Below, in pieces: positions 35,153 to 41,260 of a stretch of 64,000 nucleotides of DNA. The stretch's first letter is position 1. Every line of letters begins with the position of its first letter. The stretch is from positions 124,001-188,000 of the forward strand of contig NZ_BOOO01000013.1 of assembly GCF_016863275.1 (NCBI RefSeq), in the 5' to 3' direction. The translations under genes were made by a program, and so were the position numbers. The notes below the pieces were generated by a model, which saw only the letters and a program-made list of their open reading frames with translations, made no database searches and was not told where the DNA came from. This stretch comes from Planotetraspora mira. Its GTDB lineage: Bacteria; Actinomycetota; Actinomycetes; Streptosporangiales; Streptosporangiaceae.

Positions 35153-37570
35153 TCAGCCGCGGAGGCGTTCCATGGCGGGGTCGAACAGTGGCTCCTCGGC
35201 GACGACCGCGGCGATCCGCCGGTCGAAGTACCCGATGTGCACCACCTGACCGGGGGTGGACAGCTCGGCGGGAAGCCAGGCGTAGGCGATGCCCTTGCCG
35301 ATCGTGTAGCCGTAGGCCGCGCTCGTGACGTAGCCGACGCAGCGGTCGCCGTCGTACACCGGCTCCTTGCCCATGACCACGGCCTCAGGGCCGTCGATGG
35401 TCAGGCAGGTCAGGCGCCGCCGTACGTCCTGGCGGCGTTCGAGCAGGGCCTCGCGGCCGATGAAGTCGCCCTTGTCGGGCTTGACGGCGAAGGCGAGGCC
35501 CGCCTCGTAGGGATCGTGCTCGTAGGTCATGTCCGTGCCGAACGACCGGTAGCCCTTCTCCAGCCGGAGGCTGTTGAAGGCCCCGCGGCCGCCCGCGATG
35601 ATCCCGTGCTCCCGGCCGGCCTCCCACAGGGTGTCCCAGAGCTTGGCGCCCATGTCGGCGGTCGTGTAGAGCTCCCAGCCGAGCTCCCCGATGTAGGACA
35701 GCCGTAGCGCCGTGACGGGAACCGCTCCGACGTAGGCCTTCTTGCCCCGGAAGTAGCGGAAGCCGTCCTTGGAGAAGTCGCGTCCGGCCAGTGGCGCGAC
35801 GACCTCACGGGCGCGGGGACCCCAGATGCCGATACAGCATGTCCCGGCCGTGATGTCGCGGACGACGACCGTGCCGTCGGCGTGCCGGTGGAACCAGTCC
35901 AGGTCGAGGTTGCCGTTGGCGCCCACCTGGTAGTGGTCGCGGCCCAGCCTCGCGATGGTGACGTCGCTGCGGATGCCGCCGTCCTCGTCGAGCAGCAGGC
36001 AGTACGTCACCGAGCCGACGGACTTGTCGACGTCGCCGGTCGACAGGCGCTGGAGGAAGGCCGTGGCCCCGGGCCCGCTGACCTCGATGCGCTTGAGCGC
36101 CGACATGTCGTACACGGCCACGGACTCGCGGGACGCCTGGGCCTCCGCGCCGACGATGGGCGACCAGTGGCGGGACGCCCAATCACCGGGGTGGGGGATG
36201 TCCCTGCCGTCGACCAGGCCGGCGTTGGCGCCGTACCACTGGGGCCGCTCCCAGCCGGTCGCCTCCAGGAAGTACGCGCCGAGCTCGCGCTCGCGGGTGT
36301 GGAAGGGGCTGGTCCGCAGCGGCCGGAGGTTCGCCGGGGGCTCCAGCGGATGGATGATGTCGTAGACCTCGACGTAGTTCTGGCAGTCGCGGGCCAGGAC
36401 GTAGTCGGGGGCGAGCTGGTGTTGCTCGAACCGGTTCACGTCGCACTCGTGCAGATCGAACGACGAGCAGTGGCCGTCGGCCAGCCACTCGGCCATGGCC
36501 CTGCCCACGCCGGCCGAGTGCGTCACCCACACGGCCTCGGCCACCCAGAAGCCCTTGACCTCGGGGGACTCGCCGAGCAGCGGCATGTTGTCGGTCGTGA
36601 AGGAGAACAGCCCGTTGATGCCCTCCTCGACCTTGGCGTCGCGGGTGTCCGGCAGCAGCGACTGGGTCTCGGCCCAGGCGGGTGCGAAGTCGTCCTCGGT
36701 GAAGGTCAGCACCGAGGGCATGACCTCTGCCTCGCCGAAGGGCAGGATCTCGTCGGAGGTGATCGGCAGGGGGCGGTGGCCGTAGTAGCCGATGCCCAGC
36801 CGGTCGAACCGCTCGCGGTAGTACAGGTCGGCGTCCTGGTGACGCAGGATCGGGCGGACGGCCTCGTCGGTCTGGCCTTCGAGAGCGGCGACGGGGCCGG
36901 TCCAGGCGAGCTGGTGCGCGAGCGGTGTGAGGGGGAGCGTCATCCCCGCCATGCGGGCGACCTTGGGCCCCCAGATTCCGGCGCAGCAGACCACGATGTC
37001 CGCGGGAATCTCGCCCTGGTCGGTCACAACGCCGGTCACTTGACCGTCCTCGCTGCGGATGTCGAGGACCTCGTGCCGGTCGAGGACGCGGACGCCGCGC
37101 TCACGCGCCTTCTCGAGCTGCACCTCGACCGCGCGTACGGCCTTCGCGAGGCCGTCGGTGGGGACGAACAGCCCGCCGAGCACCCGGTCCGTCGACAGGA
37201 GCGAGTGGCGTTCCACGCACTCCTCGGGGGTGAGCAGGCGCGCGTCGAGGCCCCAGGCGGTGGCCCAGCCGTGACGGCGGCGCAGTTCGGTGAGCCGCTC
37301 GGGCGTGGTGGCGACCTCGAGCCCGCCCACCTGGAGGAAGCAGCCGAGCGCGCTCAGCTTCTCGACCGTGTACCTCGCCATCTCGGTCATGGTCTTGGAC
37401 GAGTTCGTCTGGAAGACCAGGCCGGGGGCGTGGGACGAGGAGCCGCCCGTGGCCGGTACGGGGCCCTGGTCGACGACCGTGATCTCGGTCCAGCCCTTGG
37501 CGGAGAGCTCTTCGGCGAGGGCGGCCCCGACGACTCCGGCTCCGATGATGACGACGCGCGGGCCAGCCAT
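35153..37570 (-). CDS. Dimethylglycine oxidase/dehydrogenase (FAD + folate domains)
   Basis: 805 aa; demethylates N,N-dimethylglycine to sarcosine and passes the one-carbon unit to tetrahydrofolate. The N-terminal DAO-type FAD domain has [17 protein letters not shown] and [15 protein letters not shown], where His47 matches the covalent-FAD His of Arthrobacter dimethylglycine oxidase. A middle FAO_M-like linker is followed by the GcvT-type folate domain from about residue 430 ([81 protein letters not shown]). The ATG with GGAGGTGTAC was chosen. First gene of the dimethylglycine-to-serine operon. Confidence 0.93.
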
Positions 37571-37583
37571 GTACACCTCCGTC

Positions 37584-37687: not shown

Positions 37688-38144
37688 CGTGATCATGCAC
37701 AGGTTCGGCGGGACCCCGCCCAGTCAGCCCAAACCCCCGGCGTGATCATGCACAGGTTCGCGAATGTATCCGGTGACCTGCACAGACTCCCCGCGTGATC
37801 ATGCACGGGTTCGGTGGAACGGCCGATGGCCTGCGGGAATCTCGGTCGTGATCATGCGCAAGTTCGGGATCATGCCCGTCTATCGGCGGAGATTCATTTC
37901 GTGATCATGCGCGAGAGGGCTGCATGATCACGCTGGCCATCGGCGCTGGTCGGACCGTACATTCGCGAATCTGTGCATGATCACGTCGTGGATTCGGGCA
38001 GCTCAAGCCGCCTGCAGTCGAACCTGTGCATGATCACGACAGAGGTTCGCGCAGGTCGGCAGGCGTACCGCCGAAGGTGTGCATGATCACGCCGAGGGTT
38101 TGGGCAGGCAGAAGGGCGTGATCACGAATGTGTGCATGATCACG
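37688..38144. repeat. Head-to-head array: ten 20-bp elements on exact 53-bp pitch
   Basis: Consensus CGTGATCATGCACAGGTTCG. Plus-strand copies start at 37688, 37741, 37794, 37847 and 37900. Minus-strand copies start (at their right end) at 37932, 37985, 38038, 38091 and 38144. Every step is exactly 53 bp. The two halves meet at 37900-37932, where CGTGATCATGC and GCATGATCACG form an 11-bp stem with an 11-nt loop. The first 11 bp are invariant except at the innermost right copy's far end; bases 12-20 vary slightly. The 33-bp interiors differ between units but correspond in mirror order. No gene is supported inside this 592-bp intergenic space between betB (3' end) and the dimethylglycine oxidase gene (5' end). 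53 bp is close to five helical turns, so all elements face one side of the DNA. Confidence 0.97.
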
Positions 38145-38162: not shown

Positions 38163-39629
38163 TTAGGGGGTGAACCAGTTTTGGGGGGTGGGGGAGATGT
38201 TCTGCCAGATGTGCTTGGGTTCGCGGTATTCGTTGAGGCCGGTCGGGCCGAGCTCCCGCCCGACGCCGGACTGCTTGAATCCGCCCCACTCCGCCTGTGG
38301 CACATAGGGGTGGTAGTCGTTGATCCACACGGTTCCGTGGCGCAGGCGCCGGGCCACCCGTGCGGCCTTGCCCGCGTCCTGGGTCCACACCGCGCCCGCC
38401 AGGCCGTAGTCGGTGTCGTTGCCGAGCCTGACCGCCTCGTCCTCGTCGCGGAAACGCTCGACCGTCAGCACGGGGCCGAACGACTCCTCCCGGACCACGC
38501 GCATCTCGCGGTGGCACTCGTCGAGCACGGTCGGCGGGTAGAAGTTGCCCTTCCCCGGCAGCCGCTGCCCGCCACAGCGCAGCACGGAGCCCTCGGCCAC
38601 GCCGGCCGCCACGTAGGCCTCGACCTTGGCCAGGTGCGCCGCCGAGATCAGCGGTCCCGTCTCCGCCTCGGAGTCGAACGGCCCGCCCAGCCTGATCCGC
38701 GAGGCCCGCCGTACGACCTCGTCGACGAAAGCGTCGTGCAGCGAGTCCTCGACGAGCAGGCGCGCGCCCGCCGAGCAGACCTGTCCCGAGTGGAGGAAGA
38801 CCGCGGTGAGCGCGAAGTCGACGGCGGCCTCGAAGTCGGCGTCGGCGAAGACGATGTTGGGGTTCTTGCCGCCGAGTTCCAGGGCGACCTTCTTCACCGT
38901 CGCGGCCGCGGAGGCCATGATGACCCGCCCGGTGGCGAGTCCGCCGGTGAAGGACACCATGTCGACGTCCGGGTGGTCCGCGAGCGGGGCGCCCACCGAG
39001 GCTCCCGCGCCGAGCACGAGGTTGGCCACGCCCTCGGGCAGCCCGGCCTCCTCCAGCAGCCGCATGAGCATGATGGCCGTGGACGGCGTGAGCTCACTCG
39101 GCTTCAGGACGAAGGTGTTGCCGGTGACGAGCGCGGGGGCGACCTTCCACGACGTCTGCAGCAGCGGGTAGTTCCAGGGCGTGATGAGCCCGCACACGCC
39201 GACGGGCTCGTACACGACCCGGCTGATCGCGTCGTCACGACCGGTGTCGATCACGCGCCCGGCGTCGGTCCCGGCGAGGCCGCCGAAGTAGCGGAAGCAC
39301 TTCACCACGTCGTCGACGTCGTACTCGCTCTCCACCAGCCGCTTGCCGGTGTCGAGCGACTCGGCCGTGGCGATCTCCTTGCGGTCGCGCTCCAGGAGGT
39401 CGGCCACGCGCAGCAGCAGCGCTCCGCGCTCCCGCTCGGGCGTCCCCGGCCACGGTCCCTCGTCGAACGCGGTCCGCGCCGCGGCGATGGCCAGCTCGGT
39501 GTCGGCCCGGGTCGCCTCGGCGACCGTCGTCACGAGCCCGCCGTCGGCCGGCGAAAGAATCTCGCGGCTGCCGCCTTCGACCGGCTCCCGCCAGGTACCG
39601 CCGATGTAGAGATCTTTCAACGTGCTCAC
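38163..39629 (-). CDS. betB: Betaine-aldehyde dehydrogenase
   Basis: 488-aa NAD(P)-dependent aldehyde dehydrogenase converting betaine aldehyde to glycine betaine. Motifs are [43 protein letters not shown], the general base in [14 protein letters not shown], and the catalytic Cys in [42 protein letters not shown] is the C-terminal signature. The GTG start overlaps the betA stop by 4 nt. The specific substrate is inferred from linkage with betA and betaine catabolism. The stop codon lies in the C-rich flank of the repeat array. Confidence 0.9.
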
Positions 39630-41260
39630 TTCACCTTCTGGTGACGGTAGAACTCGACCGGCTCGGCGGGCAGGGGGGTGTTGCCGAGGATCAGGTCGGC
39701 GGACTTCTCCGCCAGCATCATCACCGGGGCGTAGATGTTCCCGTTGGTCACGTACGGCATGGCCGAGGCGTCCACCACCCGCAGTCCCTCCAGGCCGTGC
39801 ACCCGCATGGTCAGCGGGTCGATGACGGAGAGCTCGTCGACGCCCATCCGCGCCGTGCACGAGGGGTGCAGCGCGGTCTCGCCGTCCTTGGCCACCCAGT
39901 CGAGGATCTCCTGGTCGGTCGAGACGGAGGGTCCGGGCGACAACTCTCCCGCGTTGTACCGGCCCATCGCGGGCTGGTTGAGGATGTCACGGGCCACCCG
40001 CACGGCCTCGACCCACTCGCGCCGGTCCTGGTCGGTGGACAGGTAGTTGAACCGGAGCGCGGGGTGCTCCCGGGGGTCGGTGCTCTTGATCTTCACGGAG
40101 CCGCGGGCGTCGGAGTACATGGGCCCGATGTGCACCTGATAGCCGTGACCGCCCGCGGGAGAGCTGCCGTCGTAGCGGACGGCGACGGGCAGGAAGTGGA
40201 ACATCAGGTTCGGGTACTCGACGTCCTCGTTGCTCCGGGTGAACCCGCCGGCCTCGAAGTGGTTGCTCGCCCCGGGGCCCTTGCGCAGGAACAGCCACTG
40301 CGCCCCGATCCACGGCCGCTTGTACAGCTTCATGGCGGGCTGCAGCGAGACGGGTTCCTTGCAGCCGTACTGGATGTAGACCTCCAGATGGTCCTGCAGG
40401 TTCTCCCCGACGCCCGGCAGGTCGTGGACGACGTCGACGCCGAGCGCCTTCAGTTCGGCGGCGTTGCCGACGCCGGAGAGCTGGAGCAGCTGGGGCGAGT
40501 TGATCGCGCCGCCACAGAGGATCACCTCGCCGGCCCGGACGGTCTTGCCGTTGTACTCGACGCCGACCGCCCGCTTCCCCTCGAAGAGGATCTTCGTGAC
40601 GAACGCCCGGGTCTTGATCTCCAGATTGGGACGGTTCTTCACGGGGTGGAGGTAGGCGCGGGCGGCCGACAGGCGGCGCCCTCGCCGGACGTTGCGGTCG
40701 AAGCGGGCGAAGCCCTCCTGCCGGTACCCGTTCACGTCGTCCGTCAGCGGGTAGCCCGCCTCCTGGACGGCCTCGAAGAACGCCGAGAACAGCGGATTGC
40801 GCACCGGCCCGCGCTCGAGCACCAGCGGGCCGTCGTGCCCGCGCATGGGGTCGTCCGCGTCGGCCGCGAGGCAGGTCTCCATGCGCTTGAAGTACGGCAG
40901 GCAGTGGGCGAAGTCCCAGGTCTCCATGCCGGGGTCGGCTCCCCAGCGCTCGTAGTCCAGGGGGTTGCCGCGCTGGAAGATCATCCCGTTGATGCTGCTG
41001 GAGCCGCCCAGCACCTTGCCCCTGGCGTGGTAGATCCGGCGGCCGTTCATGTGCGGCTCGGGCTCGGACTCGTACTTCCAGTCGTAGAAGCGGCTGCCGA
41101 TCGGAAAGGTCAGCGCCGCGGGCATGTGGATGAACACGTCCCACGGATAGTCCGGTCTGCCGGCCTCCAGCACGAGTACCCGGTTCGACGGGTCGGCCGA
41201 CAACCGGTTCGCTAAAGCGCTTCCGGCCGATCCACCGCCGACTATGACAAAGTCGTACAT
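39626..41260 (-). CDS. betA: Choline dehydrogenase (GMC oxidoreductase)
   Basis: 544-aa FAD enzyme oxidising choline to betaine aldehyde. It has the ADP-binding [48 protein letters not shown] (GMC signature 1), [15 protein letters not shown] (signature 2) and the catalytic His in [11 protein letters not shown] with [19 protein letters not shown] at the end. GGGAGG precedes the ATG. It is first of betA-betB and divergent from the IclR regulator. Confidence 0.93.

Follow-up and report, generated by a model that had tools for sequence, protein, structure and literature searches.

Arrays of a short box at 53-bp pitch in Planotetraspora genomes: candidate phased protein-binding sites at gene ends

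The genomes of Planotetraspora carry, at many places along the chromosome, arrays of a short box repeated at a pitch of 53 bp, in which the boxes are conserved while the spacers drift, which lie preferentially at gene ends and whose box suffix differs between lineages as a dialect. The best reading of these elements is a protein-binding array: phased sites for a putative sequence-specific DNA-binding protein, most probably acting at gene ends as an insulator or polar roadblock, a reading that we would put at about an even chance. One such array, at a betaine locus, had been noticed in a sequence-only reading of the window, by which we mean the whole 64,000-nucleotide stretch of Planotetraspora mira DNA analysed here.

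In this array, five GTGATCATGC boxes starting at 37689, 37742, 37795, 37848 and 37901 form a direct arm, which is faced by an inverted arm of five boxes at 37922, 37975, 38028, 38081 and 38134. The ten head-to-head elements and eight exact 53-bp within-arm steps described earlier are all present in the window sequence, as is the central 11-bp stem (CGTGATCATGC / GCATGATCACG). Because the innermost box consists of the 11-bp core only, each arm is made up of four full 53-bp units and a terminal half-box, and the central dyad is formed by the two terminal half-boxes, one per arm. With at most one mismatch allowed, the window has 20 occurrences of GTGATCATGC where 3.6 would be expected, and none of 100 shuffles reached this number. 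The features of the locus are as follows.

37688..37707, plus strand: direct-arm box 1, the outer and full box (CGTGATCATGCACAGGTTCG), from the sequence and box alignment
37741..37760, plus strand: direct-arm box 2
37794..37813, plus strand: direct-arm box 3
37847..37866, plus strand: direct-arm box 4, a GTGATCATGCGC variant
37900..37910, plus strand: direct-arm terminal half-box, 11-bp core only, the left half of the central dyad
37921..37932, minus strand: inverted-arm terminal half-box, the right half of the central dyad
37966..37985, minus strand: inverted-arm box 4
38019..38038, minus strand: inverted-arm box 3
38072..38091, minus strand: inverted-arm box 2
38125..38144, minus strand: outer box 1 of the inverted arm, with the 3' end of the betaine-aldehyde-dehydrogenase-like gene 18 bp away
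37688..37899, plus strand: direct arm, four 53-bp units, with a GACCTGC-consensus stretch at unit positions 34-40 and C at 53 (94-box logo and per-genome consensus)
37933..38144, minus strand: inverted arm, four 53-bp units
35153..37576, minus strand: flanking gene, FAD oxidoreductase plus GcvT-like, of dimethylglycine/sarcosine dehydrogenase type (the family matches shown all fall below their cut-offs)
38163..39629, minus strand: flanking gene, betaine-aldehyde-dehydrogenase-like (TIGR01804, 590.7 bits against a cut-off of 668.6)
39626-41260: choline dehydrogenase betA, adjoining the betaine-aldehyde-dehydrogenase-like gene (family match above cut-off)

Both flanking genes lie on the minus strand, and the FAD/GcvT-type oxidoreductase gene turns its 5' end to the array. 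A special link to the betaine genes, which this setting had suggested, does not extend to the class, as the other 24 array places read (864 kb) lie elsewhere. Between 37400 and 38400 of the window, intrinsic terminators (a GC hairpin followed by a T run) gave one match where 0.5 would be expected by chance, too little to mark the array as one, and no tRNA was found in the window.

The betaine array proved to be one of many. In the 9.03-Mb genome to which the window belongs (G000), the exact word GTGATCATGCRC occurs 783 times (384 and 399 by strand), and its reversed control 0 times. The 864 kb of this genome that were read hold 39 arrays at 25 places, usually of three to six boxes in a single orientation or head-to-head (single arrays at 11 and head-to-head pairs at 14 of the 25 places, all with both neighbouring genes called), and all 103 exact GTGATCATGCAC words in this DNA fall inside arrays or at most 60 bp from one, with none elsewhere. 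Same-strand steps of 40-66 bp are almost invariably of one length: exactly 53 bp in 122 of 127 cases in G000 (four are 52 and one is 47), in 51 of 51 in G003 and in 45 of 48 in G001 (three are 52), where G001 to G004 denote other genomes of the same genus. Outside this range there are steps of 18-35 bp, which in part reflect imperfect boxes within units or, outside arrays, boxes spaced by 21 bp, together with steps of 83, 105 and 106 bp. The same value came out of a scan that used no motif and looked for threefold repeats at any pitch from 20 to 120 bp: pitch 53 gave 14 clusters in 400 kb of G000 and 13 in 388 kb of G001, whereas the means at the comparison pitches (others not divisible by three) were 0.18 and 0.05. 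Box pairs of this kind were found in all five genus members searched, three P. kaengkrachanensis loci align to window-genome contigs at 86-92% identity with arrays on them, and exceptions to the pitch in the form of 54-56-bp steps occur in 11 stretches, all from named Planotetraspora species and all bearing arrays. Further loci and relatives with the same pitch, which the sequence-only reading had proposed to look for, thus exist in number, making the arrays a class with many loci. The two findings that it had named as damaging are absent: relatives do not space their boxes at random, and the array is no unique recent duplication, given the many copies in G000 and the arrays at orthologous places in G003.

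By a logo of 94 boxes and the consensus of three genomes, the unit has the order CGTGATCATGCAC-AGGTTCG, a drifting stretch, GACCTGC at positions 34-40 and a C-rich stretch, the leading C of the CGTGATCATGCAC-AGGTTCG motif being position 53 of the preceding unit. Outer boxes are less degenerate, with GTGATCATGCAC found in 20 of 21 at rank 0 as against 5 of 21 at rank 3. Mutual information across 178 distinct full units from three genomes is strongest for adjacent or near positions, and the weaker distant pairs (42-51, 32-45, 28-48) form no stems; this absence of stem-like covariation points to an element that is a DNA site.

The same result bears on an RNA-level reading, in which hairpins formed by transcribed arrays would terminate or stabilise transcripts, often acting from both sides. 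The head-to-head array of the window folds into one long hairpin (-266 kcal/mol), whole head-to-head arrays average a z of -14.7 (n=14), some central dyads in other lineages are perfect palindromes, and G000 single arrays average a z of -2.7 (n=11), or -2.5 as whole units (n=10). Against this, 11 of the 25 places are single-orientation, and single arrays come nearer to random in G003 (z -1.0, n=8) and G001 (0.1, n=4), while isolated arms fold weakly in all three genomes (z -1.1, -0.8 and -0.6; n=28, 10 and 16). Furthermore, unit halves pair no better with their own partner than with halves from other units, swapped arms pair as well as cognate arms (p 0.41, 0.38 and 0.53), and Rfam gave no match at gathering scores in the window. 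We therefore regard an RNA-level role as improbable. For direct arrays in particular, an RNA element was considered and set aside, being unsupported by Rfam, covariation, folding against shuffles and arm swaps, although G000 single arrays do fold somewhat better than shuffles.

Head-to-head geometry, with an equal pitch in both arms, also raised the question of a cruciform or long double-stranded DNA arm as the functional form. In line with this, units of equal rank in the two arms are more alike than units of shuffled rank in G000 (74 of 5000 shuffles as high) and in G003 (17 of 5000), but the likeness is missing in G001 (1019 of 5000), and neither the single-orientation arrays nor the lack of any excess of cognate pairing would be expected of such a structure. 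The very long cruciform that had been proposed for the betaine array thus fares poorly, with 11 of 25 places single-orientation and cognate arms pairing no better than between-locus swaps, and we find it hardly credible. The equal-rank likeness in G000 and G003 is a sign of occasional exchange between arms.

Comparison of G000 with G003 revealed what is held in the arrays and what is free to change. Eleven of the 12 array places on contig C1 of G000 have an array at the orthologous G003 place (ten found in one direction and one more in the reverse), with box numbers that are often unequal, often by whole units; at C1:60118, compared in search of an empty site, the orthologous G003 place is occupied by another gene, giving no clean empty site. 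Among 37 matched full units (those with at least 36 of 53 letters identical, the rest being dropped), the two species differ at 3 of 370 sites in box positions 1-10, at 7 of 148 in positions 16-19 and at 61 of 370 in positions 32-41, and at about 40% of spacer sites (171 of 444 in columns 20-31 and 165 of 407 in columns 42-52), spacer rates that mix drift with unit turnover because the units were picked by similarity and others dropped. The spacer changes faster than both available yardsticks, namely fourfold sites, which differ by 19.2% (2,982 of 15,514), and 121 array-free intergenic regions, which differ by 14.0% and show 200 indel events, or 0.010 per base. This fast spacer change can be put down to unit turnover and occasional inter-arm exchange.

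With intergenic DNA as the neutral yardstick for indels, about 34 changes away from 53 would be expected since the split among the 127 steps of G000, where 5 are seen (Poisson 1e-9), and 13.5 among the 51 steps of G003, where there are 0 (Poisson 1e-6). Off-53 steps are seven- to ten-fold rarer than the intergenic indel rate predicts, far beyond chance, and the pitch looks selected, as the first reading of the betaine array had supposed of its spacing. Both word and pitch are held and the intervening letters are not; a site and a spacing under selection, with a free spacer, are what define a phased binding array.

We next consider where the arrays lie. Of the 39 arrays in G000, 27 follow the 3' end of a gene that runs in their own direction; 23 of these begin no more than 30 bp past the stop, and in seven arrays the TGA of the first box doubles as the stop codon. 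A co-directional 3' end lies behind 14 of 18 arrays in G003 and 10 of 20 in G001, and a gene 5' end behind 12 of 39, 4 of 18 and 10 of 20 in G000, G003 and G001, respectively. Relative to background gaps of at least 100 bp, array places in G000 are more often convergent (11 of 25 against 49 of 355; Fisher p 5e-4) and less often divergent (3 of 25 against 120 of 355; p 0.03). The same is seen in G003 (convergent 6 of 13, background 29 of 166; divergent 0 of 13, background 52 of 166), and the trend is weaker in G001 (convergent 3 of 12, background 24 of 169; divergent 3 of 12, background 55 of 169). Five other genomes were sampled mostly in the neighbourhood of known boxes, with lone boxes included; the places in them comprise 29 tandem, 14 convergent, 3 divergent and 2 intragenic ones. 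These counts rest on genes called by a simple codon-usage script, so individual cases may be wrong. Since REP elements are described as having the same preference (PMC3733652), position alone does not prove function, and the 3'-end placement may only reflect tolerance. In addition, the arrays cannot be a general terminator, as 39 of them in 864 kb leave most genes without one.

Within the genus, the boxes have a dialect. In G001 the box suffix has been switched genome-wide, with 649 GCAG-type pairs (starting with GTGATCATGCAG) against 6, 1, 9 and 5 in the other four genomes, and only 3 pairs of the GCRC type. At the betaine locus, G001 has arrays of 5 + 4 boxes with GCAG in eight of the nine, G004 has 3 + 6 boxes with GCAG in none, G002 retains a two-box remnant, and G003 has arrays within a wider gap, the betaine-locus genes there lying about 1.6 kb apart with an array at either side of the gap (L159 2963-3080, L163 1500-1617). 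The ratio of exact to relaxed pairs is 71/201 in G002, 492/717 in G000, 396/640 in G003 and 513/724 in G004. Box pairs in G002 are more degenerate than in its sister species (e.g. L164 1424-1489), as would be expected if selection were relaxed there. The change of suffix across the boxes of G001 would be best explained by a changed reader.

Further afield, scattered actinobacteria have the core CGTGATCATGCA in combination with different suffixes and pitches. The core CGTGATCWTGCA is present in more than 20 copies in 18 of 200 family genomes, belonging to 8 of 68 genera, with at most 8 copies in the rest. Pairs at 53 bp with up to three mismatches number 201-733 in g1 (five genomes), 532 in g93 (one genome), 55 and 243 in g34 (two genomes) and 13-170 in four of the ten genomes of g99, several of these sets having non-standard suffixes; 20 further genomes of the 200 hold 1-6 such pairs, which is near chance, and the reversed control gave 3 overall. 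In array-less g99 members (G107, G206 and G178; 60 kb each), arrays of another dialect were sought and none was found at pitch 53, the one match being a run of N. Outside the family, G093 has 288 core copies, with 37 bp as the commonest step (15 of the 41 listed same-strand steps that are no longer than 70 bp) and others from 23 to 61 bp; G282 has 287 core copies, with steps of 32-55 bp and facing pairs; and G091 has 35, including a tandem of abutting 22-bp boxes. Only G000 and G093 among 296 phylum genomes exceed six core copies, and the distribution is patchy within genera, with 287 boxes in G282 and 0 in its congener G245. Some 53-bp arrays of Planotetraspora are also accompanied, outside the array itself, by additional boxes at 21-22-bp steps (L040 ~1800-1900 in G001; G000 C1 22285-22327), in an abutting form like that of the long tandem in G091. 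The earlier suggestion that each box presents the same DNA face fits the 53-bp pitch (~5.05 turns) and these 21-22-bp cases, but not the 37-bp step (~3.5 turns) that another lineage uses most often, so equal facing is not a universal rule. Two further arrangements were seen: in G131 (L231 9958-14000), back-to-back boxes flank a 3.9-kb stretch with pentapeptide-repeat-like and AAA-ATPase-like ORFs, named by eye; and in G225 (L172, L173, L234), the innermost facing boxes overlap to give perfect or near-perfect 26-bp palindromes, such as CGTGATCTTGCAATTGCAAGATCACG.

A genome-wide word with a species dialect is also what characterises DNA uptake sequences (DUS), which act in DNA uptake through a ComP-type receptor. 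The conserved core with its species-wide dialect changes resembles the DUS dialects of Neisseriaceae (PMC3630211). The boxes might, by this analogy, be a DNA uptake or transfer signal spread by biased uptake and not by a cellular function. However, their density, with 783 words in 9.03 Mb or about 0.09 per kb, falls short of the thousands of DUS per genome, and an uptake signal explains neither the fixed 53-bp step nor the multi-box arrays, leaving this reading a very slim chance.

Patchiness could also reflect a dispersed mobile or selfish repeat (REP- or MITE-like) that is multiplied by a trans-acting transposase, lands harmlessly after genes and grows by unit duplication. Besides the patchy presence within genera, such an origin would suit the small facing-pair elements of other genera, the REP-like 3'-end and convergent placement (PMC3733652), the whole-unit differences in copy number between orthologous places, and the Y1 transposase genes found in 6 of 18 box-bearing genomes tested (G001, G037, G125, G159, G232 and G238). 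Yet the transposase search, which covered the Y1 family PF01797 (Y1, RAYT), found no member in 12 of the 18 box-bearing genomes, while 6 of the 8 others tested had one; among the 26 genomes, 12 were positive, and the box-bearing ones without it include G000, G002, G003, G004, G101, G225, G093 and G282. Boxes that stay fixed while spacers drift are not what an inert repeat would show, insertion at the C1 places is not recent because 11 of the 12 have an array at the orthologous G003 place, and searches for phage, plasmid and viral-contig matches were empty. A mobile repeat is therefore an unlikely explanation, though one to be taken seriously.

As for the identity of a reader, the candidates examined were PF01797 and ArgR sites, and no binder emerged from them. 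The box core holds a perfect ARG half-site, raising the possibility that the boxes are sites of the arginine repressor, ArgR. A Streptomyces coelicolor fragment listed as ArgR-shifted contains CCGTGATCATGCACCC (SCO5864, PMC5839063 Table 1). A matrix built from that table minus the CCGTGATCATGCACCC site gives 164 G000 boxes a mean of 8.5 bits (training mean 10.6) at the aligned offset only, and the box core is present in 43 of 101 sites scoring at least 11 in 864 kb. The best match to this matrix in the 864 kb (G000 C1 310163-310182) lies just upstream of an argG-like gene, named from its translation, which suggests that the S. coelicolor ArgR model also applies in this genus. However, a good fit is confined to the right half-site: on the left, the two positions that carry most information are G in 36% of boxes and never A, and the 8.5 bits compare with ~17 for the argG/argH operators. 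There is no tandem second ARG box, offsets of 20-22 averaging -8.7 to -15.3 in three genomes; the conserved TTCG and GACCTGC fall outside the ARG box; and about 4 in 10,000 genome positions score equally, for a match that was found after the fact. On this partial match ArgR is a candidate only, and quite an improbable one.

Returning to phased sites for a DNA-binding protein, the patterns above allow a mechanism to be outlined. A putative protein would read a box of about 20 bp, made up of the core CGTGATCATGCA and a lineage-specific suffix, and would also contact GACCTGC in the second half of the unit, with several molecules or oligomers sitting adjacently at the 53-bp step. A two-turn box, a second contact region, a five-turn step and a short array are features to be expected where several protein copies touch along one DNA face. 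The arrays tend to start just past stop codons and are directed away from the gene, with pairs often meeting head-to-head, and this directionality suggests a polar block between transcription units. The likeliest role would then be to act at gene 3' ends as an insulator or polar roadblock that halts run-on or convergent transcription, with nucleoid organisation as a second choice that would have the same anatomy. More tentatively, and with less than even confidence, we envisage an undescribed actinobacterial chromosome system in which a trans-acting protein reads a shared core in a species-specific manner, phased arrays cap gene 3' ends head-to-head and delimit insulated chromosome units, and protein and sites switch dialect jointly. 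We found no description of the motif or the arrays in the open-access literature, which mostly omits subscription papers, and a claim of novelty for the class would rest on that limited literature together with the comparisons with known classes below. Many sites whose distance hardly departs from one value, although the DNA separating them drifts, are a rare and direct sign that a hidden protein assembly exists on bacterial DNA. In a phylum in which intrinsic terminators of the classic type are few, the arrays would, if a protein does bind, represent a gene-end insulator or chromosome organiser of a new kind; if a transposase were found to move the boxes, they would be a new variant of dispersed extragenic repeats. 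The dialect switch of G001 offers a natural test of joint change in a protein and its many sites.

Several known systems share some of these properties. Sal-box arrays downstream of rRNA genes, which are eukaryotic and confined to rDNA, are bound by TTF-I and resemble the 53-bp arrays as orientation-dependent arrays after genes, being protein sites in the Sal-box case; we know of no homology between the two systems. CRISPRs are built from repeats a few tens of bp long that hardly vary, separated by unique spacers, and lie next to cas genes. The arrays differ in having an invariant part of only about 10 bp, spacers that share TTCG and GACCTGC, and 39 occurrences in 864 kb. By DFAST, 3-64 'CRISPRs' have been listed per Planotetraspora genome (PMC11431748), the main text of that paper not containing the word 'repeat'.

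REP elements of the GTAG and CGTC types are described as intergenic, near gene 3' ends and mostly convergent or co-directional, the CGTC type being said to lack a RAYT transposase, and protein-binding roles have been proposed for REP/BIME (PMC3733652). The arrays are like them in their hundreds of intergenic copies, often in opposed pairs, and in this placement, which is weaker in G001. They are unlike them in having no conserved hairpin or 20-40-bp imperfect palindrome, in running direct at a fixed 53-bp pitch and in combining a fixed core with species dialects, and unlike the GTAG type in that neither the window genome nor most of the box-bearing genomes tested have the Y1/RAYT family. With ARG boxes (PMC5839063) the arrays have in common the CATGCA half-site, 20-bp boxes and, in places, 21-22-bp steps, but they lack the left half-site and the tandem partner and add the 53-bp pitch and an extra conserved suffix. 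As these tested defining features are not found, we keep the arrays apart from REP elements, CRISPRs and ARG boxes. DUS (PMC3630211) likewise are short words with a conserved core and a genome-wide species dialect; the arrays are sparser, pitched and multi-box, with no known link to competence. Finally, the TAACTGA repeats of Beggiatoaceae (PMC4679880) form many intergenic sets of a short word, patchy across distant bacteria, with 2-6 direct copies per set and protein binding proposed. Those repeats are 7-bp units found mostly just upstream of start codons, whereas the boxes described here follow each other at 53 bp, lie mainly at gene 3' ends and in many cases face one another.
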